Shown: one piece after another, positions 23,315 to 33,246 of the stretch
Numbering within the stretch: position 1 is the first letter of the stretch
How the letters are laid out: each line of letters begins with the position of its first letter
DNA from: Thioalkalivibrio sp. ALJ21
GTDB lineage: Bacteria; Pseudomonadota; Gammaproteobacteria; Ectothiorhodospirales; Ectothiorhodospiraceae
Length of the DNA: 64,000 nt
Direction: 5' to 3'
Assembly: GCF_000378605.1 (NCBI RefSeq)
Contig: NZ_KB905155.1
Location: forward strand, 372,001 to 436,000
Notes under the pieces: generated by a model
The model's input: only the letters and a program-made list of their open reading frames with translations
Told to the model about the DNA's origin: nothing
Database searches by the model: none
Program-made: the position numbers and the translations under genes

Positions 23315-24763
23315 ATGGCCGGATCGCGAAGGTTGAATGGTTCCTTTTTGCGGTCGGTGGATGGTGGGACTTTCCTGCCCCGGGGGGATTCCGACGAATC
23401 GCGTTATGCACTGCAGCGTGCGTGTGCCACTGCGATGGTGCGCGAAGTGGCATGGGTGGACGGTGGCGGAGGAGCGGGGGAATCAATGCCGAGCTTCTCC
23501 GATGCCTGGAGGCTGTGGCGCGTCCCGGGGGCGGGTGGCCTGGCCGAGGGCGCGCTCAGCAAGATTCGTGTTGGGCTTGTCGATCTGGGCAGCCCTGTCC
23601 CGAACTGGGTGACCGAGTTTGTACACACCCATCAGCACGTGAAGTGGATTGCGCTGGTGCACCCGGATCTATTACTGCAAGACGATGTTCGCGAGCTGAT
23701 CCGCGAGTCCTGTTACGACTTCCACACCCTGCCGTTCGACCAGGCCCGCCTTGAAATCACGCTGGGCCGGGCATGCGGGATGGCGGCGCTGGAGGCGCGG
23801 CCTGCGCGCCCCACCCGGGGTGTCGAGTCGGACCATATCCCCATCGTCGGTCATAGCCCGGTGATGCAGGGACTGGCCCGTCAGATCGAGCGGGTCGCGG
23901 GCTCCGAGGCACCGGTGCTCTTTCAGGGCGAGAGCGGGACCGGCAAGGAGCTGGCTGCACTGGCGGTGCACCGTCATTCACGGCGCGCGAACGGGCCGTT
24001 TGTCGCCGTAAACTGCGGGGCTTTGCCGGCGCAACTGATCCAGTCGGAACTGTTTGGCCACGAGGCGGGTGCCTTTACCGGGGCGGGCCGACGCAAGGTC
24101 GGGCAGTTCGAACTCGCGCATGGCGGCACGCTGTTGCTGGACGAGATTGGCGATCTCAGTCTGGAGCTACAGGTCAATCTGCTGCGTTTTCTGCAAGAGG
24201 GAACGCTGGTGCGGCTCGGTGGGTTGCAACCCATCAAGGTGGATGTACGGGTGCTCGCGGCGACCCATGTCGCGCTGGACGAGGCCGTCGAGACCGGTCG
24301 TTTCCGCGAGGACCTCTACTACCGCCTGAATGTCATCCAGCTGGATGTGCCCCCGTTGCGTGAGCGGGGCACGGATTTGAAAGAACTCGCGCGCTTCTAT
24401 TTCGAGCAGTTCCGCAGCCAGAACCCGCGACTGCGCGGCTTTACCCAGGCCGCGTGGCAGGCGATGTACGCCCATGCCTGGCCCGGCAACGTACGCGAGC
24501 TGGTGAACCGGGTGCGGCGGGCGGTCACGATGGCGGAGGGCCGCCTGATTCGGCCGGAGGATCTGGGGCTGGCCGGTTCGGGCAATGCCGAGAAGCCGCT
24601 AACGCTGGCCCAGGCGCGCTCGACCGCCGAAAGGGAATTGCTGATCAAGGTGCTGGGCCAGTGCGACAACAATGTCTCGCGTGCCGCGCGCCAGTTGGGG
24701 GTGGGCCGGATGACGCTCTACCGCCTGCTCGACAAGTACGGGCTGCGTTCCAGTGCGCCCTGA
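23315..24763 (+). CDS. VpsR-like sigma54-dependent transcriptional activator
   Basis: The 482-residue enhancer-binding protein has three parts. Residues 84-160 resemble the degenerate receiver of VpsR-type regulators (RVGLVDLGSP, CYDFHTLPFDQARL, LGRACGMAAL). Residues 175-410 are the AAA+ domain with Walker A GESGTGKE (205-212), the sigma54-contact loop GAFTGA (252-257) and Walker B LLLDEIGDL. Residues 440-478 are a Fis-type helix-turn-helix. VpsR proteins bind c-di-GMP rather than depend on phosphorylation. The gene is immediately upstream of the FapF-like gene and opposite the amyloid genes, one of which has a sigma54 promoter candidate (28544-28559), so it most likely controls that locus. 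Direct proof is lacking. Confidence 0.9.
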   Translation: MAGSRRLNGSFLRSVDGGTFLPRGDSDESRYALQRACATAMVREVAWVDGGGGAGESMPSFSDAWRLWRVPGAGGLAEGALSKIRVGLVDLGSPVPNWVTEFVHTHQHVKWIALVHPDLLLQDDVRELIRESCYDFHTLPFDQARLEITLGRACGMAALEARPARPTRGVESDHIPIVGHSPVMQGLARQIERVAGSEAPVLFQGESGTGKELAALAVHRHSRRANGPFVAVNCGALPAQLIQSELFGHEAGAFTGAGRRKVGQFELAHGGTLLLDEIGDLSLELQVNLLRFLQEGTLVRLGGLQPIKVDVRVLAATHVALDEAVETGRFREDLYYRLNVIQLDVPPLRERGTDLKELARFYFEQFRSQNPRLRGFTQAAWQAMYAHAWPGNVRELVNRVRRAVTMAEGRLIRPEDLGLAGSGNAEKPLTLAQARSTAERELLIKVLGQCDNNVSRAARQLGVGRMTLYRLLDKYGLRSSAP

Positions 24764-24830
24764 ATCTTGTGACGGGGAAGAGGGTGGCCCTTGCGTAACA
24801 GTTCGGCCCCTGGGGCCATGGAGAACGACG

Positions 24831-25880
24831 GTGGAAAAGCGATGGGTCAGGAGAAGTGGTTTTTTAGGGGTGGTGCCGCTGTGTATTGGGCTGGCCGGGC
24901 CGGCCGTGGGCCAGGAGGCTCGCGAGGCGGTCGGGGACGCCCCGGCGGACTCGGGCCCCGAGGTGACGGTCTTCGAGGAGCGTGGTGTGCTCACACCGAA
25001 GGGGCAGTGGGTGGTGGAGCCCTCCTTGTCGTACGTGCACAGCAGCTCGCTGGATGTGTCGATCGAGGGATTCACCATCATCCCGGCCCTGGCGATCGGG
25101 CTGATTGATGTCAGCGAGACGGAGCGCGATACGCTGACCGCGGCGGTGAGCTTTCGCTACGGCCTGACCGAGCGCCTCGAGGTCGGCATGAAGATCCCCT
25201 ATGTCTACCGCGAGCAGCAGGTGCGTCGGCGGGATATCCTCGAGGCGACCGCGCTGGAGCGGGTGACCGGCTCCACCGGTCAGGGACTGGGCGATATCGA
25301 GTTCGGCGTGTCCTATCAGTTCAACATGGCGGATCGAGGCCGGCCGTTCTTTATCGGCAACCTCAAGGCGAAGAGCACGACCGGGAAGGGGCCCTTCGAT
25401 GTCGCCCGCCGCGAGATCCTGGACGACGAGGGCAATCGCCTGGGCGAGATCTTCCTCGAGCAGCCCACGGGTTCCGGGTTCTGGAGCATCCAGCCCAGCG
25501 TGACGATGATCTACCCGACCGACCCGGCGGTCATATTCGCGAACGTCAGCTATCTCTGGAACATCGAGCGCGATGTGGGCGATGGCTATGGCAAGGTCAA
25601 TCCCGGCGACGCGGTCGGGATGAGTCTGGGGATGGCGATCAGCCTGAACGACCGCACCTCGATGAGCTTTGGCTACGATCACAGCACGGTATTCCGGACA
25701 CGGGTGGAGAACGAGAGCGGGCTGGAGCCCGTATTCGGGCGGCGCCAGGTCGGGACCGTGCTGTGGGGGATCTCGCACCGGCTGACGGACCGCACCAGTG
25801 TGAATTTCTCGCTTGGTGTCGGGGCGACCGAGGCCGCACCGGATGTGCAGGCCACCCTGCGGGTGCCGATCCGTTTTTGA
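24831..25880 (+). CDS. fapF: FapF-like outer-membrane beta-barrel (amyloid secretion pore candidate)
   Basis: The 349-residue protein starts at a GTG after GGAGAACGAC, giving a clean signal peptide (SGFLGVVPLCIGLAGPAVGQ). The mature part has a short acidic plug-like region (ADSGPEVTVFEERGVLTPKGQWVVEPSL) and then alternating beta strands to a terminal aromatic, VPIRF, which is the outer-membrane insertion signal. In Fap systems FapF is a trimeric barrel that exports the amyloid subunits. The frame opens further upstream (ATG at 24753, overlapping the activator gene), but that would spoil the signal peptide. It converges with the other amyloid genes. It could also be a generic transporter-family barrel; context favours FapF. 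Confidence 0.75.
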   Translation: MEKRWVRRSGFLGVVPLCIGLAGPAVGQEAREAVGDAPADSGPEVTVFEERGVLTPKGQWVVEPSLSYVHSSSLDVSIEGFTIIPALAIGLIDVSETERDTLTAAVSFRYGLTERLEVGMKIPYVYREQQVRRRDILEATALERVTGSTGQGLGDIEFGVSYQFNMADRGRPFFIGNLKAKSTTGKGPFDVARREILDDEGNRLGEIFLEQPTGSGFWSIQPSVTMIYPTDPAVIFANVSYLWNIERDVGDGYGKVNPGDAVGMSLGMAISLNDRTSMSFGYDHSTVFRTRVENESGLEPVFGRRQVGTVLWGISHRLTDRTSVNFSLGVGATEAAPDVQATLRVPIRF

Positions 25881-25903
25881 GGGGCGTTGCCGTGGCGGAG
25901 GGT

Positions 25904-26401
25904 TCAGAAGCCTCCGCCACGCTCGAGCATGTGCTGTTCCAGTGCCCGGCCCAGGTCCCCGCGCGGCATCTGCAGATTGCCAAGCTCCAGTTGCAGGATG
26001 GTCTGGTGGCGGATGTCCTGTCCGTCGAGTTCGTTCTGAATCGCAGTGACCCAGCCCATGCCCGAGGTCCAGCTTTCCGCCGGCATCGCGCCCCCGGTCT
26101 GGATGACGACCGAACGCAGGTCGGTGCCGGGCCAGTGGGAGCCGCTGGCAATATCGCTCAGGGGGCGCAGGGTGGAGTGGTTGATTACCTCGCCATTGAG
26201 TGAGGTGATCTGTTCCAGTCCGATCGATATCTCCAGACCATCGCGCCCGAAGAAGCCGCCGCGCTGGGTCTCCAGTACCGAATCCGGTACCACGCGCTCG
26301 TCACCAAGCGGTGGCAGGACATCCAGGGCGTGAGCCGTGGTGGCGCATGTCGCACTGGCCAGCATAGCGGCCAGGATGCAGCAGGGCAGGCGTTTCATCA
26401 T
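25904..26401 (-). CDS. Exported protein of the amyloid locus (FapE-position, unassigned)
   Basis: The 165-residue protein has a signal peptide ending near TTAHA. The mature start, DVLPPLGDERVVPDSVLETQRGGF, is followed by FGRDGLEISIGLEQITSLNGEVI, a pattern I associate with small secreted proteins next to C39-peptidase/amyloid genes; the family has no known function. It is last in the minus-strand set, its start overlaps the end of the C39 gene, and a GTG at 26410 or ATG at 26398 are alternative starts. It could play the FapE role of an exported accessory protein, but clear homology to FapE cannot be claimed. Confidence 0.7.
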   Translation of the reverse strand: MMKRLPCCILAAMLASATCATTAHALDVLPPLGDERVVPDSVLETQRGGFFGRDGLEISIGLEQITSLNGEVINHSTLRPLSDIASGSHWPGTDLRSVVIQTGGAMPAESWTSGMGWVTAIQNELDGQDIRHQTILQLELGNLQMPRGDLGRALEQHMLERGGGF

Positions 26402-26406
26402 GGCGC

Positions 26407-27114
26407 TCACCAGTCGCTCGCGCGGGGCAGATGCAGGGTGAAGCTCGCCAGATCGCTGCGCACGACACCCGATTCGATCGGCGCGCGGGTCACGGCGGCC
26501 CAGGTTTCCGAGGCATTGAAGTGATGCCGGGCGAGGTCCACGTCCTCGCGGATGATGAACAGGATGTCGTTGACCCAGACCCGCTGGAACTCGTGGCGGG
26601 TATAGCTCTTGACCCCTAGCGCGGGATCTCCGACCAGTATCCGCCCGCCTTCGATCCCCTTGATCACCACGAAGTGGCGATAGCCGCGGGTCTCGATCAT
26701 CGCGATCGCCGGCACCCCGAGGTTCTCGAGGTCGTCCAGCCCGATGCGAAAGCCGTCGGCGGGCAGGCCCTTCTGGCCCTCCAGGTAGTGCTTCATGTCG
26801 AGCATGGAGAAGCCCTGCTCGCGGATCAGGTCCTGGTCGCCGTGGCGGAACATGCTGTCAAAGGTCTCGACCTCGGTGGTGGGGCGGTCGTAGTGATACG
26901 TGAGCAGGGTGGCCAGGGCGGCGGAGCCGCAGCTGAAGTCGTAACGCTGTGGGACGATGGAGCGAAAGCGCAGGTCTTTCAGGCTCTCCACTGGCACATT
27001 CATGCTGCCGATCATGCCCGGGAACTGGGCCCCACTGGCCCATGCAGACAGGGTGGGTGAAAACATCAGAGTGGTGGTGATGACTGCGCAGAGGAACCAT
27101 CGGCGGATGGGCAT
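26407..27114 (-). CDS. fapD: FapD-like C39-family cysteine peptidase
   Basis: The 235-residue protein has a signal peptide (residues 1-27) and a papain-like C39 fold with a complete active site: Gln57 and Cys62 in QRYDFSCGSAAL, His147 in GYRHFVVI and Asp163 in VGDPALGVK. Unlike bacteriocin ABC exporters the peptidase is a stand-alone exported protein, exactly as in FapD of the Pseudomonas Fap system, where it is needed for amyloid secretion. It lies between the small amyloid-type protein upstream and the unassigned exported protein downstream. Its substrate is probably one of these secreted partners. Confidence 0.85.
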   Translation of the reverse strand: MPIRRWFLCAVITTTLMFSPTLSAWASGAQFPGMIGSMNVPVESLKDLRFRSIVPQRYDFSCGSAALATLLTYHYDRPTTEVETFDSMFRHGDQDLIREQGFSMLDMKHYLEGQKGLPADGFRIGLDDLENLGVPAIAMIETRGYRHFVVIKGIEGGRILVGDPALGVKSYTRHEFQRVWVNDILFIIREDVDLARHHFNASETWAAVTRAPIESGVVRSDLASFTLHLPRASDW

Positions 27115-27124
27115 CGGTGATTCC

Positions 27125-27517
27125 TCAGGGGTTGATCGTGATATTCACGATCATCGATTCCTGTATGGCGACGTTATTGCCGCTGTTCTGAATGACCGTG
27201 GAGATCCCTCGGGCGTTGTCGAAGGCACCGGCCGCCACGAAGTTCTTGCCGGTTGTGGAGTTCACGGCGTGGTTGTTCGCAAGGTCGATGCGCGAATGGA
27301 TCTGACCGAGCTGGATATTGGTTACGCCCTGGCGTGCCCGTTGCGCGTCCAGGGTGGCCAGATCGACCACCTCATAGGCGTCGGGACCCGAGCCGAGCAG
27401 CAGTGTATCGCCGGCCGGCGAGACGTCGGCATGGGCGATGGCTGTCACCAGCAGCATGCCGGCGGACAGAAAGGCAGCAGAAACGATGCCGCCCCGGTGG
27501 GCTGACGGATTACACAT
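27125..27517 (-). CDS. Minor amyloid/nucleator-type secreted protein (FapA/B-like)
   Basis: The 130-residue protein has a signal peptide (to about Ala30) and no Ser-Asp repeats. Its C terminus, VIQNSGNNVAIQESMIVNITIN, matches the end of the large repeat protein upstream (QVSQNSGANSLTQQQVSVQA) in the spacing of QNSGxN and later Gln residues, and both have FVA before it. The pair therefore look like a minor and a major subunit of one fibre. The ATG at 27517 after AGAGGG is chosen over 27535. It is separated from the major subunit gene by two hairpins that may lower its expression. Confidence 0.75.
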   Translation of the reverse strand: MCNPSAHRGGIVSAAFLSAGMLLVTAIAHADVSPAGDTLLLGSGPDAYEVVDLATLDAQRARQGVTNIQLGQIHSRIDLANNHAVNSTTGKNFVAAGAFDNARGISTVIQNSGNNVAIQESMIVNITINP

Positions 27518-27545
27518 GACCGGACCCTCTTGCATGGCAGGGAGA

Positions 27546-27595
27546 ATGCGGCGGGGATGGTCCCCGCCGCATGCCGTTCCGACACGCGGTGTCGG
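27546..27595 (-). promoter_or_regulatory. Two stacked hairpins behind the amyloid gene
   Basis: CCGACAC-GCG-GTGTCGG (27579-27595) ends exactly at the amyloid stop. A second perfect 12-bp stem with a 3-nt loop (27546-27557, 27561-27572) follows. There is no T tract after either on the minus strand, so they are better seen as RNA-stabilising or partial attenuating structures than as full terminators. Such a block lets the major subunit outnumber the downstream gene products. Confidence 0.65.
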
Positions 27596-28459
27596 TTAGT
27601 TGCCCAGGTTCAGATGTGCCTGCACCGAGACCTGCTGCTGGGTCAGGCTGTTCGCGCCGCTGTTCTGCGAGACCTGGGTAATCCCCGCCGGAGCCACGAA
27701 GGAATCCGAGCCGATGTAGTTGTGGCTCTCCTGGTTGGCATGACCCGCGATGTCGACGTAGTTCCCGGTCACGGTACCCGACAGCTCGTTCTGGCTGACC
27801 ACGGCGTTCACCTGCAGCGTCGTGTTGAAGCTGTCCGTCGCGGTGCTGTTGCCGGAATCCATGATTGCCAGGCTGTTGTCGGAGTTGTCGCTCTGGTCAC
27901 GGGTCACCGAGGCGGTGGAGCCGTTGTTGGCCGCCGCGCTGTTGTCGTCCGCATTGGCCGAGCTGTTATCCGAGTTGTCGTTACCCGAATCCGAAATGTT
28001 CAGGCTGTTGTCGGAACTGTCATTGCCCGAATCAGCGATGTTGGTACTGTTATCGGAGCTGTCGTTCCCGGAGTCCGAGATATTCAGGCTGTTGTCCGAA
28101 TTGTCATTGCCGGAATCCGAGACGGTGGTGTTGCCCGAGTCGGCGATGTTCGTGCTGTTGTCGGAGCTGTCGTTCCCGGAGTCGGAGATATTCAGGCTGT
28201 TATCCGAGCTGTCATTGCCGGAGTCCGAGACGTTGGTGCTGTTGTCCGAGCTGTTGGACAGGTCGGAGTCATTAATCGCGACCGCCTGGGAATACTCGTT
28301 CGCCGAGGCGCCGCCGCCATCGGCCGAGGAGGTGGCGGTGGCGGTTTGATCACCGACTTCGCCATCGGCGGTATTGGTCGGGTTGGCCAGGGCCAGGCCC
28401 GAGCTCAGGCCGAAGGCCAGGGCGATAGCGGAAGCAATCAGGGTCTTTTTGAAGTTCAT
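27596..28459 (-). CDS. fapC: Major functional-amyloid subunit with Ser-Asp-Asn repeats (FapC-like)
   Basis: The 287-residue protein has a signal peptide (cleaved near ALA, residue 25), a Ser/Gly/Ala linker and about seven repeats of a 13-residue unit around SDSGNDSSDNSLNI (residues 70-165). An Asn/Gln-rich C-terminal part with QNSGAN and LTQQQVSVQ follows. There is no Cys and few Lys or Arg after the signal; the repeats are strongly acidic. Repeat-bearing secreted proteins beside a C39 peptidase and an outer-membrane barrel are the hallmark of Fap amyloids. GGAGAC precedes the ATG. It is first in the minus-strand operon, behind a sigma54 promoter candidate. A calcium-binding adhesin is the alternative reading. 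Confidence 0.78.
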   Translation of the reverse strand: MNFKKTLIASAIALAFGLSSGLALANPTNTADGEVGDQTATATSSADGGGASANEYSQAVAINDSDLSNSSDNSTNVSDSGNDSSDNSLNISDSGNDSSDNSTNIADSGNTTVSDSGNDNSDNSLNISDSGNDSSDNSTNIADSGNDSSDNSLNISDSGNDNSDNSSANADDNSAAANNGSTASVTRDQSDNSDNSLAIMDSGNSTATDSFNTTLQVNAVVSQNELSGTVTGNYVDIAGHANQESHNYIGSDSFVAPAGITQVSQNSGANSLTQQQVSVQAHLNLGN

Positions 28460-28543
28460 GGCTTTGTCTCCATTGGCTAGCTAGCAATAGACGGTTGTCG
28501 TAGCCCCCGGTACACGTGGCCCGTGCTACGCAACAACCCAACT

Positions 28544-28559
28544 AGCAGGAGTTGGGCCA
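28544..28559 (-). promoter_or_regulatory. Sigma54 (-24/-12) promoter candidate for the amyloid operon
   Basis: On the minus strand TGGCCC-AACTC-CTGCT keeps the invariant GG and GC dinucleotides at the required 10-bp spacing and fits TGGCAC-N5-TTGCW with two mismatches. A start site near 28533 would give a leader of about 75 nt. It overlaps an inverted repeat, CCCAACT-N6-AGTTGGG (28537-28556). A sigma54 activator gene lies at the other end of the locus. Confidence 0.6.
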
Positions 28560-28895
28560 GTGGAAGAGTTGTCTGGTAAAACAATGACTTATTACGTGGA
28601 GGGGTATCGCGATTGGACGCAATCTGTGCCATCCGCGATACAGTGCGCTCGCTCGGGAGCGGCCGTGTGGTGTCTAACCCTTTGAGTTAACTACAGAATT
28701 TTTTTTCGCGTCAGTGAATCACCGAGGAGACACCAGGTACGCCAGCTGAGGTGGCCGCGGGCGGACTTGCAGGGTAGAGGGGGTGGTGGCGGTCGGGAAG
28801 GAGGCCGTTGCAGCGCATCGGGAGATGCAGAGGGGGCGCCTGGCAGGTGGATGCAGCGAGATTGTGGGGCTGCCTGGCAGCCCCTTTGATGCGGA
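28560..28895. other. Upstream region of the amyloid operon, no gene seen
   Basis: This 336-bp stretch lies between the ferredoxin stop and the sigma54 candidate. I see no plausible gene in it. It contains an A/T-rich patch (28681-28710) and is the place to look for binding sites of the VpsR-like activator, which normally lie 80-150 bp upstream of a -24/-12 promoter. Confidence 0.5.
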
Positions 28896-30661: not shown

Positions 30662-33079
30662 TCAGCCGGCGACCGATCCGGAACGCCGGCTTTCCGCGAC
30701 CGGAACAGGACACGGTTCCAGGGGCTCCGGCACATGGAGTCCGAAGCCCTGGGCATAGTCCACACCCACCAGCCGCAGGGCGTCCATCAGGCTCTCGTGC
30801 GAGACACACTCCGCGACCGTCTGGACCCCGATCACCCGTCCGATGTGGTGAATGCTCTCGACCATCGCGCGGCTGACCCGGTCCTCCGCCATGTCACGCA
30901 CGAAGCTGCCATCGATCTTCAGGTAGTCGACCTTTAGTGTCTTGAGATAGCCGAACGAGGCCATACCCGTCCCGAAGTCGTCCAGGGAGAAGTGGCAGCC
31001 TATGCCGCGCAACTCGCGGATGAAGCGGCTGGCCTGGCTCAGGTTGGCGATCGCGGCGGTCTCGGTAATCTCGAAACAGATTCGGCTGGGTTCGACGCCG
31101 CTTTGTCCGATCTGGTCAATGATGTAGTCCAGCATGCCTCGGTCGCAGAGGGACTGGCCGGACAGGTTCACGGCGAAGTGGCCTTCGGTATCGGTGTCAG
31201 TGGCGGCGTGCTGAAAAACCCGCTTGATGACCCAGCGATCGATCGCGGGCATCTGCCCGTAGCGCTCTGCGGCGGGGATGAAGGTGGACGGCAGGACGAC
31301 CGTGCCGTCCTCCTCGACCATGCGCAGCAGGACCTCGGTGTGTGTCGGTTCGTCACCGGAGACCGGGACGATCTTTTGTCCGTGTAGCCAGAACCGGTTG
31401 TGCTGCAGGGCATGGGTAATGCGCTGGACGCAGTTCATCTCGCCCTGGCAATGCGACAGCTCGGCATCCCCGCTCCGCGAGACATGGATGCGGTTGCGTC
31501 CCTGTTCCTTGGCCAGATAGCAGGCGGCGTCGGCCTCGCTCATGTACTGCACCGTGTCTTTCACGTGCCCGAACACCGGGACGACCCCGATGCTGATCCC
31601 GACGCGGAAGATCCGTCCCTGCCACTCGAACCGGTAGTTGTCGACGGTTGTGCGCAGGGTCTCCGCGATGCGTTCCGCCTGCACCAGCGGGCAGTTCGAC
31701 AGCAGCACGCCAAACTCGTCGCCTCCCAGGCGTGCCAGGGTGTCGCTCTCGCGCAGCTGGCTGTGCAGCTGCGAGGTCAGCTGGCACAACAGGTCGTCGC
31801 CTGCCCCGTGTCCGCAGGTGTCGTTGACCAGCTTGAACTGGTCCAGGTCCATGTAGAGCAGGGCGTGTTCGCGGTTTTCCTGCTGGGCCGTGGCCACCAG
31901 CTGGCTCAGGCGCCGCTCGAACTCCGCACGGTTGGCCAGCGAGGTCAGGCAATCGTGTGTGGCGGCCCAGGACAGCTCGCGGGCCATCTCGCGCGCCTTG
32001 GAGACATCGCGGAACACCAGGGCCGCGCCGATGGTGGTGCCGTCGCGGTCACGGATGGGGGCCGAGACCTCTTCGATCGCGTGTTCGCGACCCTCGGCCG
32101 AGATCAGGATGGCCTCTTGATCCAGCGTACAGGCCGTGCCGTCCGGCATGCGTTCGGTCAGCGGATGGTGGAGCCGCTCGCCGGTGGACTCCCGGATGAT
32201 GTGGAACACGCTTGCGAGGGGTTGGTTGTAGGCGGACGCCTGGTCCCATCCCGTCAGGTGTTCGGCGACCGGGTTGAGGTAGTCGACCCGGCCCTCGAGG
32301 TCCGTGGTGATCACGCCATCGCCAATGGCGTGCAATGTGACCTGGGCGCGTTCCTTTTCTTCGTGCAGTGCGGATTCGATCCGCCGCGTATGACGCAGGA
32401 CACCCAGCGTGATCAGCACACCCATCAGTAGGGCGGCGCCGCCGAGCACCAGCATCAGGACGACCGCGGTACGGTATTGACGCGCGGTGTCGCGCACGGC
32501 TGTCAGTCCGGCCTCCTGCTGAAGGTTGATCATCGCGTCCAGGTGTTCCAGCACGCGCCCCTGTTTCGGGATAGCCTCCGCGAGCAGCCAGCTCGTCGCC
32601 TCGTCGGTCTCGCCGTCCAGGATGTGGTCGAGCACGCGTTCCTGGACCTGAACCGCGCGCTCGGTCAGTCCGCGGGATTCGTCCAGCAGCCGCTGCTCGG
32701 CGGCCGTCATCGGCATCGCATCCAGCTGCTGGCGGTTGTACATGAACTTCGAGGCATGGCCACGAAAGGTCATGATCCCTTCATCGAGGTCGAACGGGTC
32801 GGTGGTGATCGACAGCTGGAGCAGGGTTACCGAGCGTTCGCGGGCGGCGTTGCGCATGTTGCCCAGCAGCTCGGTCTTCACGTTGTGTTCGTGGACGATC
32901 AGCTCGAGGCGGTCGTGCACCTGAGCCATACGATTCAGGCCCAGCGCGATCAGCGCGGCCATCAACACGAGCACGATGGTAAACCCGAGTCCAATCACCC
33001 AGGTGGAACGGCTGCGCAGCTCCGGCGGCGCGCTGCCGCCTGGCCCGGATGCCGGCCCTTTGTGAAATCTCCCTGCCAC
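30662..33079 (-). CDS. Membrane GGDEF-EAL protein with four-helix sensor and PAS domain
   Basis: The 805-residue protein has a helix at about 24-50, a periplasmic four-helix-bundle-type sensor to about 200, a second helix (205-230) and a PAS domain (about 245-365). GGDEF (375-530, [12 protein letters not shown]) and EAL (545-790) domains follow. The EAL motif reads EVLLR, which keeps the ExLxR core, with NLSGQSL and DDFGTGMASFGYLK, so phosphodiesterase activity is possible. The GGDEF site is intact. Either activity may dominate. The GTG at 33079 follows GGGAG at good spacing; the GTG at 33085 is too close to it. It is tandem with another GGDEF-EAL gene 167 bp upstream. Confidence 0.9.
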   Translation of the reverse strand: MAGRFHKGPASGPGGSAPPELRSRSTWVIGLGFTIVLVLMAALIALGLNRMAQVHDRLELIVHEHNVKTELLGNMRNAARERSVTLLQLSITTDPFDLDEGIMTFRGHASKFMYNRQQLDAMPMTAAEQRLLDESRGLTERAVQVQERVLDHILDGETDEATSWLLAEAIPKQGRVLEHLDAMINLQQEAGLTAVRDTARQYRTAVVLMLVLGGAALLMGVLITLGVLRHTRRIESALHEEKERAQVTLHAIGDGVITTDLEGRVDYLNPVAEHLTGWDQASAYNQPLASVFHIIRESTGERLHHPLTERMPDGTACTLDQEAILISAEGREHAIEEVSAPIRDRDGTTIGAALVFRDVSKAREMARELSWAATHDCLTSLANRAEFERRLSQLVATAQQENREHALLYMDLDQFKLVNDTCGHGAGDDLLCQLTSQLHSQLRESDTLARLGGDEFGVLLSNCPLVQAERIAETLRTTVDNYRFEWQGRIFRVGISIGVVPVFGHVKDTVQYMSEADAACYLAKEQGRNRIHVSRSGDAELSHCQGEMNCVQRITHALQHNRFWLHGQKIVPVSGDEPTHTEVLLRMVEEDGTVVLPSTFIPAAERYGQMPAIDRWVIKRVFQHAATDTDTEGHFAVNLSGQSLCDRGMLDYIIDQIGQSGVEPSRICFEITETAAIANLSQASRFIRELRGIGCHFSLDDFGTGMASFGYLKTLKVDYLKIDGSFVRDMAEDRVSRAMVESIHHIGRVIGVQTVAECVSHESLMDALRLVGVDYAQGFGLHVPEPLEPCPVPVAESRRSGSVAG

Positions 33080-33246
33080 GCCCACTCCCTGTGTCGCGAG
33101 GGGGCTCGGCCGAGCTGGCGTCCCCCTTCCTTCTTTTTATGACCCGTTCATTCCAGGCGTTATGTTGCTGATTCAATGGGAGTGTTAGCTGACTGTCAAA
33201 CAGTGAATGCTAATGCATGTTCAAAGTGCAGCTAGCAGGGCGGGTT

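Follow-up and report, generated by a model that had tools for sequence, protein, structure and literature searches.

A Fap-related export locus of Thioalkalivibrio sp. ALJ21 with a putative double-glycine leader in its FapE-like protein

Introduction

What does the exported C39 peptidase of a Fap-type locus cut, and is every such locus a Fap system? Both questions are raised by a block of six genes in Thioalkalivibrio sp. ALJ21, located in the 64,000-nucleotide stretch of DNA analyzed here (the window; positions 372,001 to 436,000 of contig NZ_KB905155.1, assembly GCF_000378605.1, in a genome of 2.96 Mb). The active-site cysteine of the Fap peptidase, FapD, is required for secretion of FapC, which the C38A substitution abolishes, and FapE, which loses its N-terminus, was alone among the Fap proteins in being completely processed at that end (PMC5557850; this and the other papers are cited from excerpts of their text). 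The FapD substrate was described as "yet to be determined" (PMC6173800), Rouse et al. suspected FapE on account of its GG and GA motifs, and FapD is "thought to" target FapE at its N-terminus and FapF in its periplasmic part (PMC12822426). The excerpts of PMC5135000, PMC12392863 and PMC11787515 name no target site. The locus is read here, with a probability of about 0.62, as a sister system of Fap, in which a FapD-like, FapE-like and FapF-like export core that includes leader cleavage serves different fibre or adhesin subunits. The main result is that the FapE-like protein of this family has, as judged from sequence, a C39-type leader at the place equivalent to a motif of canonical FapE.

Results

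The six genes listed in an initial annotation of the window are all present and open at 23315-28459. They form two opposed transcription units and not a single fapABCDEF operon. The genes and the leader are located as follows (positions within the window):

23315 to 24763, plus strand: sigma54-dependent activator of 482 residues, with a partial VpsR-type N-terminal domain, an AAA+ domain and a Fis-type helix-turn-helix (HTH)
24831 to 25880, plus strand: outer-membrane barrel of the FapF family, 349 codons, start codon GTG (model, profile and structure matches)
25904 to 26410, minus strand: P168, exported FapE-like protein, proposed peptidase substrate (translation, alignment, hhalign, 398-genome test)
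26255 to 26299, minus strand: double-glycine leader of P168, residues 38-52, with the end VPDSVLETQRGG (invariant residues, 80-locus count)
26407 to 27114, minus strand: FapD-type exported C39 peptidase of 235 residues, with Q56, C62, H147 and D163 (Pfam and NCBIfam models, alignment)
27125 to 27535, minus strand: P136, exported; degenerate leader VDLATLDAQRAR at 27332-27367, QN module at the C-terminus (hhalign, pattern counts)
27596 to 28459, minus strand: P287, exported acidic Ser/Asp/Asn repeat protein, likely the major subunit (translation, homologue composition)

The leader of P168

The last 4 bp of the peptidase gene also belong to the longest frame of P168. The leader of P168, its QN module and a sigma54-type site at 28544-28560 on the minus strand are features that the initial annotation did not include. 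The leader has glycines at −2 and −1 (G51 and G52), arginine at −3 (R50) and hydrophobic residues at −7 and −12 (L46 and V41), as expected of a double-glycine leader, and its spacing is the known one, comparable to that of bacteriocin leaders. L46, R50, G51 and G52 were invariant in 10 aligned sequences and in 33 chosen ones. We infer that P168 is cut between residues 52 and 53, after the second glycine.

Conservation was then examined in a wider family, the best 80 of at least 574 stretches encoding a peptidase relative, obtained by scanning a species-genome collection with the peptidase alignment. The gene inspected in each locus was the match to the P168 profile (64 loci) or, without one, the nearest frame downstream of the peptidase gene (16 loci). 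A bacteriocin-type leader was found in the gene downstream of the peptidase in 80/80 loci, ending in RGG in 71, RAG in 7, RGA in 1 and RGT in 1. A strict pattern, derived from the family itself (hydrophobic residue at −12, L or M at −7, listed residues at −4, then R, G or A, and G), occurred in 73 of the 80 proteins, versus 89 of 24,000 sequences made by shuffling them. The 80 loci are not independent samples, since several are closely related and four (L041, L042, L047 and L081) come from genomes that are also represented among L025-L034. The strict pattern was absent from the 80 peptidases, the 77 barrels and the 38 P287 proteins of the same loci. Residue −4 of the strict matches was L, M, I, V or A in 55 and Q in 14. 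The misses included three proteins with RGG and an unlisted residue at −4 (L078, L082 and L087), two loci with RGG in a frame that the selection rule did not choose (L057 and L058), and the RGT and RGA endings (L060 and L115, respectively). The P168 gene of L063 is separated from the peptidase gene by 1.4 kb, on its downstream side.

A looser first pattern was found in 72/80 proteins and was dropped in favor of the strict one because it also matched 33/77 barrels, 25/60 P136 proteins and 13.8% of the shuffles. A variant ending in RG[GATRK] was found in 67/80, together with 9/77 barrels, 21/60 P136 proteins and 1.4% of the shuffles. RAG replaces RGG in six Halomonas-type loci and one Chromatiales metagenome-assembled genome (MAG) (L065, L068, L071, L072, L074, L075 and L094), and these loci are a natural test of peptidase specificity.

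Although P168 had no NCBIfam FapE match, comparison of 15 P168 with 15 FapE sequences by hhalign gave a probability of 95.3% (E 2.1e-8). The alignment spans the signal peptide, the leader and the following FG(I/V) strand, that is, the N-terminal 60 residues, the remainder being unaligned, and P168 is on this basis an N-terminal homologue of FapE. Canonical FapE was examined in 23 canonical-type loci, 22 of them with a readable protein (it is cut off in L137); the one in L122 was confirmed as FapE by NCBIfam (351 bits, cut-off 250). The motif [L/M]xxxRG[RK][YF] was present in 21/22, no later than residue 110 of the called frame, and L139 has TGKY. The C39-type sequence of the sister family aligns with this motif.

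An independent test used a P168 profile, which included no FapE, against 398 genomes of the phylum (E 0.001). It produced 25 rows in 18 genomes, all 25 at 0.7 kb or less from a FapD-type row, among at most eight candidates scored per genome, so that stray P168 proteins elsewhere could be missed. The distance was 0.5 kb or less for 23 rows, and the other two were second pieces of the same frame. Conversely, 17/17 FapD rows of at least 190 bits had a P168 neighbor (from 46 FapD rows at E 1e-25). One row, in G406, stands on the P136 side, and four are FapEs in canonical loci (G184, G366 and G141 twice; E 1.4e-4 to 8.1e-4). At G192:C11:1029304-1033360 there are two sets of peptidase and P168 rows with equal scores, separated by 2.9 kb, which looks like a recent tandem duplication.

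The peptidase and the barrel

The initial annotation described a C39 peptidase with intact Gln, Cys, His and Asp, and Q56, C62, H147 and D163 were indeed invariant in an alignment of 14 peptidases. The FapD model NF058616 gave 149.9 bits, below its cut-off of 330, a value also missed by 13/21 FapD rows. Matches in the structure database include the C39 domains 4ry2 and 6mpz. These results point to an exported FapD-type C39 peptidase with intact catalytic residues. The Fil system (NCBIfam FilB and FilC, "putative pilus system"), whose proteins belong to the same superfamilies, was also considered and was rejected, since the peptidase and the barrel scored higher on the FapD and FapF models than on those of FilB (134.5 bits) and FilC (64.1 bits).

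The longest frame of the barrel gene starts at 24753, the 349-codon version starts at the GTG at 24831, and a signal peptide was seen by eye. FapF was the best NCBIfam model (149.8 bits, model cut-off of 700 not reached). The solved FapF structure (5o67) was matched with E 8.8e-32 by the single sequence and E 4.9e-67 by a 35-sequence family profile, in agreement with the FapF-like barrel proposed originally. By sequence, then, the barrel appears to be of the FapF type. Equivalences taken from the alignment of these 35 sequences to the solved FapF suggest that the residues needed for secretion are conserved in part only: the equivalent of E111 is kept in 35/35, R157 in 33/35 (K in 2), and K401 is R in 34/35.

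Relatives and distribution

A FapD search of 58 genomes, including that of strain ALJ21, gave a match in 19 (E 0.001), and 16 stretches were examined. With the own genome not counted, matches of E 1e-40 or better were found in 7/29 genomes of the genus and 1/7 of the family. The block is thus patchy within the genus. Since the six genes are found in the same order in 8/8 such relatives (L025-L032), a chance cluster of unrelated exported genes was rejected. A further locus, L033, contains all five export genes, with no activator in the 11 kb examined, L034 has four of the five, with P287 not found, and L035, L037 and L038 are canonical-type fap loci; G048 carries both types.

Most of the 80 loci are proteobacterial. 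The Alpha-, Beta- and Gammaproteobacteria and the Geobacteraceae are represented, together with two MAGs, one titled Deltaproteobacteria and the other Ignavibacteria (L059), the latter possibly through transfer or a binning error. Profiles matched P168 in 64, P136 in 60, P287 in 38 and the barrel in 77 loci, counts that, like those of gene placement and of the activator below, are lower bounds because many loci end at contig ends. The barrel gene opposes the peptidase gene from downstream in 50 loci, follows it on the same strand in 21 and takes another position in 6; in the remaining 3 no barrel gene was found. The split arrangement, noted initially as a difference from the single fapA-F operon, is therefore no peculiarity of this locus, and separation of fapF is a published variant of fap (PMC3792158).

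A tree of 106 peptidases placed the 23 canonical FapDs in one clade with support 97/95, apart from the type studied here. This type has 80 rows, one from the window and 79 from the loci (L106 was dropped because it lacks the motif), and they share one side of a weakly supported branch (70/71). Three rows provisionally labelled Fil-like did not form a group, two of them standing on a long branch of 1.65.

The secreted proteins

P168, P136 and P287 matched no Pfam family at E 1; in NCBIfam, P136 and P287 matched no family, FapB and FapC included, at E 1, and P168 had one chance-level match (E 0.039). P136 ends in QNSGNNVAIQ... and P287 in QNSGANSLTQQQ..., and the initial annotation had pointed to a shared QNSGxN...Q pattern. 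The comparison of both C-terminal QN modules (hhalign probability 96%, E 3.8e-9) bears this out and indicates that they are homologous. The P168 and P136 modules are probably homologous as well (80.7-88.2%, E 1.3e-5 to 2.9e-6), and the hhalign comparison of P287 with P168 was not significant. The P287 and P136 modules align in register with canonical FapB/C repeats, though not significantly (E 0.026 and 0.0013, respectively; hhalign probability below 19%).

About seven acidic Ser-Asp-Asn repeats had been reported for P287; by eye there are eight DSGN units, seven of them inside the tandem array. After residue 26 the protein contains 14.6% D+E and 0.4% K+R, and it is plausibly a secreted fibre or adhesin. 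Several genera with acidic P287 homologues are marine or halophilic. Among 38 homologues compared by eye, those of two Geobacteraceae loci are equally acidic, with more basic residues, which leaves the earlier proposal of a salt-adapted system weak. No FapA was recognized by eye at the locus, where no FapA model was run by name, and P136 shares with it only a leader-like motif.

The remaining features of the block are these:

24068 to 24085, plus strand: GAFTGA motif of the activator (read from translation and DNA)
25891 to 25921, no strand: inverted repeat CGTGGCGGAGG-N9-CCTCCGCCACG between the convergent genes (by eye, from DNA)
27599 to 27721, minus strand: C-terminal QN module of P287, last 41 residues (hhalign against the P136 module)
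27962 to 28254, minus strand: tandem repeats of P287, unit of 42 bp or 14 residues (repeat analysis)
28544 to 28560, minus strand: candidate sigma54 (−24/−12) promoter of the P287-P136-FapD-P168 operon, CTGGCCCAACTCCTGCT (10/13 consensus positions)

The inverted repeat is, by eye only, a possible two-way terminator.

The activator

The activator matched the sigma54 interaction domain (PF00158, 229.4 bits) and HTH_8, and has GAFTGA, the sigma54 contact. A sigma54 gene is present in the genome. The VpsR domain (PF20161) scored 56.9 bits (cut-off 23.7) over residues 83-151 only, the VpsR structure 7y19 gave E 2.4e-10, and the protein is the only VpsR-domain match found in the genome. The "VpsR-like sigma54 activator" of the initial annotation is thus right in its sigma54 part and its linkage, and only partial in its VpsR domain. 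An activator relative (E 1e-50) was present in 55/80 loci, with an N-terminal domain detectably similar to that of the window in 36. In 49 of the 77 loci that have a barrel gene, this relative lies at 400 bp or less from it, and in 47 of those on its strand. Sigma54 activators also adjoin canonical-type fap loci: one in L144 (145-1548, plus strand) was seen by eye, and one in L037 (11006-12403, plus strand) has a VpsR domain of 29 bits (cut-off 23.7).

The zone searched for potential −24/−12 sites reached from 420 bp before the longest P287 frame to 60 bp into it, 6/38 P287 loci having too little upstream DNA. Sites of 11/13 or better were found in 13/32 loci versus 0.9% expected from first-order Markov sequences, and near barrel starts in 3/75 versus 1.3% expected. 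Upstream of P287, a site scores 10 or 11 in all seven genus relatives, 12 in L044 and 10 in L045. In L026 no site exceeds 8 in the upstream zone; sampled again as L047, this locus has a site of 11 shortly after the start of the longest frame.

VpsR acts in vitro on vps promoters with sigma70 polymerase and cyclic di-GMP (PMC9303241). Because of this, and because the VpsR match is partial, control of the activator by cyclic di-GMP, which the initial annotation proposed, is no more than a plausible guess. A protein of 807 residues encoded near the block (30662-33085, minus strand) has, by eye, GGDEF- and EAL-type segments and is a possible cyclic di-GMP enzyme.

Discussion

For the cleavage, the order of events, the export route, the nature of the fibre and the signal, we infer the following working. 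The VpsR-type activator would drive sigma54-dependent transcription of P287-P136-FapD-P168, the barrel being made from the opposite strand. The exported proteins would reach the periplasm by Sec, where the peptidase would recognize the P168 leader, cut after its second glycine and perhaps also act on the degenerate P136 leader. The cut would license export of the QN-module proteins through the barrel. Once outside, P287 would use its repeats and its QN module to build an adhesive surface material, which may be amyloid, and P136 and P168 would act as nucleator or anchor.

The locus resembles Fap in its exported C39 peptidase, its barrel, the FapE-like protein with a leader-type motif after the peptidase, and its exported Asn/Gln-rich proteins. 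Unlike Fap, it has no FapB/FapC repeats by model, its leader ends in RGG where Fap has RG[RK], its barrel has LTP where the FapF plug has FF, and two opposed units stand with an adjacent sigma54 activator, although such an activator is found beside some canonical loci too. A C39 family member and a double-glycine leader are also the elements of bacteriocin maturation by the C39 domains of ABC transporters. In contrast to these, the window peptidase is exported and stand-alone, its substrate would be cut in the periplasm, and no ABC transporter was seen in the six-gene block. The activator shares the N-terminal domain, the AAA+ domain and the HTH with VpsR of Vibrio cholerae and differs from it in the limited span of the match and in having GAFTGA.

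Several observations weigh against the reading as a sister system with leader cleavage. In the P168 of the window, neither −4 (Q49) nor −15 (E) is hydrophobic, and the canonical FapE motif ends in RG[RK], not GG. The leader lies past residue 130 of the longest frame in 11/73 proteins (some such frames are overlong). It does not always directly follow the signal peptide, because at least seven members (L052, L056, L064, L079, L080, L094 and L116) have a long region before it, with no evident signal peptide just upstream; in these a cut would give two sizeable protein parts. The strict pattern is also found in 5/60 P136 proteins. The P136 leader is weaker: a loose pattern fits 46/60 (5.2% of shuffles) and also 17/77 barrels (10.8% of shuffles), and another one fits 36/60 (2.5% of shuffles). 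By eye, the proteins taken for FapA by position in L141-L143 have LSDxD(I/Y)xx(I/M)xSG. FapA is reported unprocessed (PMC5557850), and a leader-like motif in P136 and FapA need not, therefore, mean cleavage. The barrel of the window has only about 20 residues before the plug region and no N-terminal coiled coil, which in FapF is required for FapC secretion (PMC6173800); N-terminal extensions are present in many other family members. Contacts of the FapF plug are also changed, with F102 replaced by L and F103 by T in 33/35 and E98 kept in only 6/35. Finally, the 10/13 score of the promoter candidate was reached by 61/2000 shuffles.

Some of these points would fit a leader that serves for docking, with the peptidase holding P168 (and P136) by LxxxRGG without cleavage. 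Some C39-like domains are said to act in this way as a chaperone or gate, P136 retains leader-like motifs that often end in RAR, RGR or RGK, and the motifs of FapA and FapE just mentioned agree with this possibility. It is nonetheless unlikely, since the four catalytic residues are invariant in the aligned peptidases, RGG or RAG is kept in 78/80 loci, and in Fap itself the C38A mutant of FapD does not secrete and FapE loses its N-terminus (PMC5557850). Less probable still is that the locus is a diverged canonical Fap, where P287 is FapC, P136 is FapB or FapA, P168 is FapE and the repeats are eroded beyond recognition. The presence of FapD, FapE-like and FapF-like parts in one place, the register of the QN modules and the motif common to P136 and FapA are consistent with it. 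Moreover, Acidithiobacillus is counted among Fap carriers (PMC3792158), FapF and FapD are described in vesicles of "F. caldus" (PMC10853474), and some Acidithiobacillus systems are of this type (L092 and L112). The absence of FapB/FapC model matches, the non-significant comparison with Fap repeats, the separate clade of canonical FapDs and the genome with both systems argue the other way, even if the grouping of this type is itself weak. The "Fap variant" of the initial annotation holds for the peptidase and the barrel and not for Fap proper, and in the profile searches that it proposed the FapD and FapF models were matched below their cut-offs and the VpsR domain in part, those of FapB, FapC and FapE unmatched. 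Hardly credible is a barrel that is a COG4313/phenol-type uptake channel beside exported proteins forming a non-fibrous surface adhesin or coat. The Pfam label of the barrel is Phenol_MetA_deg (25.4 bits, cut-off 22) and FapF itself resembles a COG4313 channel (PMC6173800), but the FapF match is far stronger and the linkage of the barrel with an exported C39 peptidase is steady.

As a probable sister system of Fap, the locus belongs to a widespread, little-described export family, in which many environmental bacteria combine the FapD-FapE-FapF core with other exported proteins. The family supplies a precise and falsifiable candidate for a FapD-type cut site in 80/80 sampled loci, in register with FapE. 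We consider it an even bet that Fap and the sister family work alike: after Sec export, a stand-alone C39 peptidase would make a periplasmic double-glycine cut in FapE or P168, encoded next to it, and so open or load a FapF-type channel. Leader processing of the bacteriocin kind would then have been relocated from cytoplasm to periplasm, where it would serve secretion of matrix proteins across much of the Proteobacteria. Colocalization of fapD and fapF homologues had been reported for five further phyla (PMC6173800), and published Fap systems probably include some members of the family. The excerpts read of open-licence PubMed Central papers, to which the search was confined to the exclusion of subscription literature, contained no account of the leader or of the family as distinct from Fap, and the excerpts of PMC8250860 and PMC6416229 contain nothing on Fap.

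Leader-like sequences were also seen beside other C39 peptidases. In L036 (8860-11974, minus strand), three exported proteins next to another exported-type C39 peptidase begin with A(L/M)xDxxLxxxxxQxG or similar. In L039 (42-1274, plus strand), three small exported proteins have LxDxxLGxVxxG near the N-terminus, one of them LSDSDLGEVTGG, beside another C39 peptidase and a barrel, and these genes are possibly a further family with the same logic.

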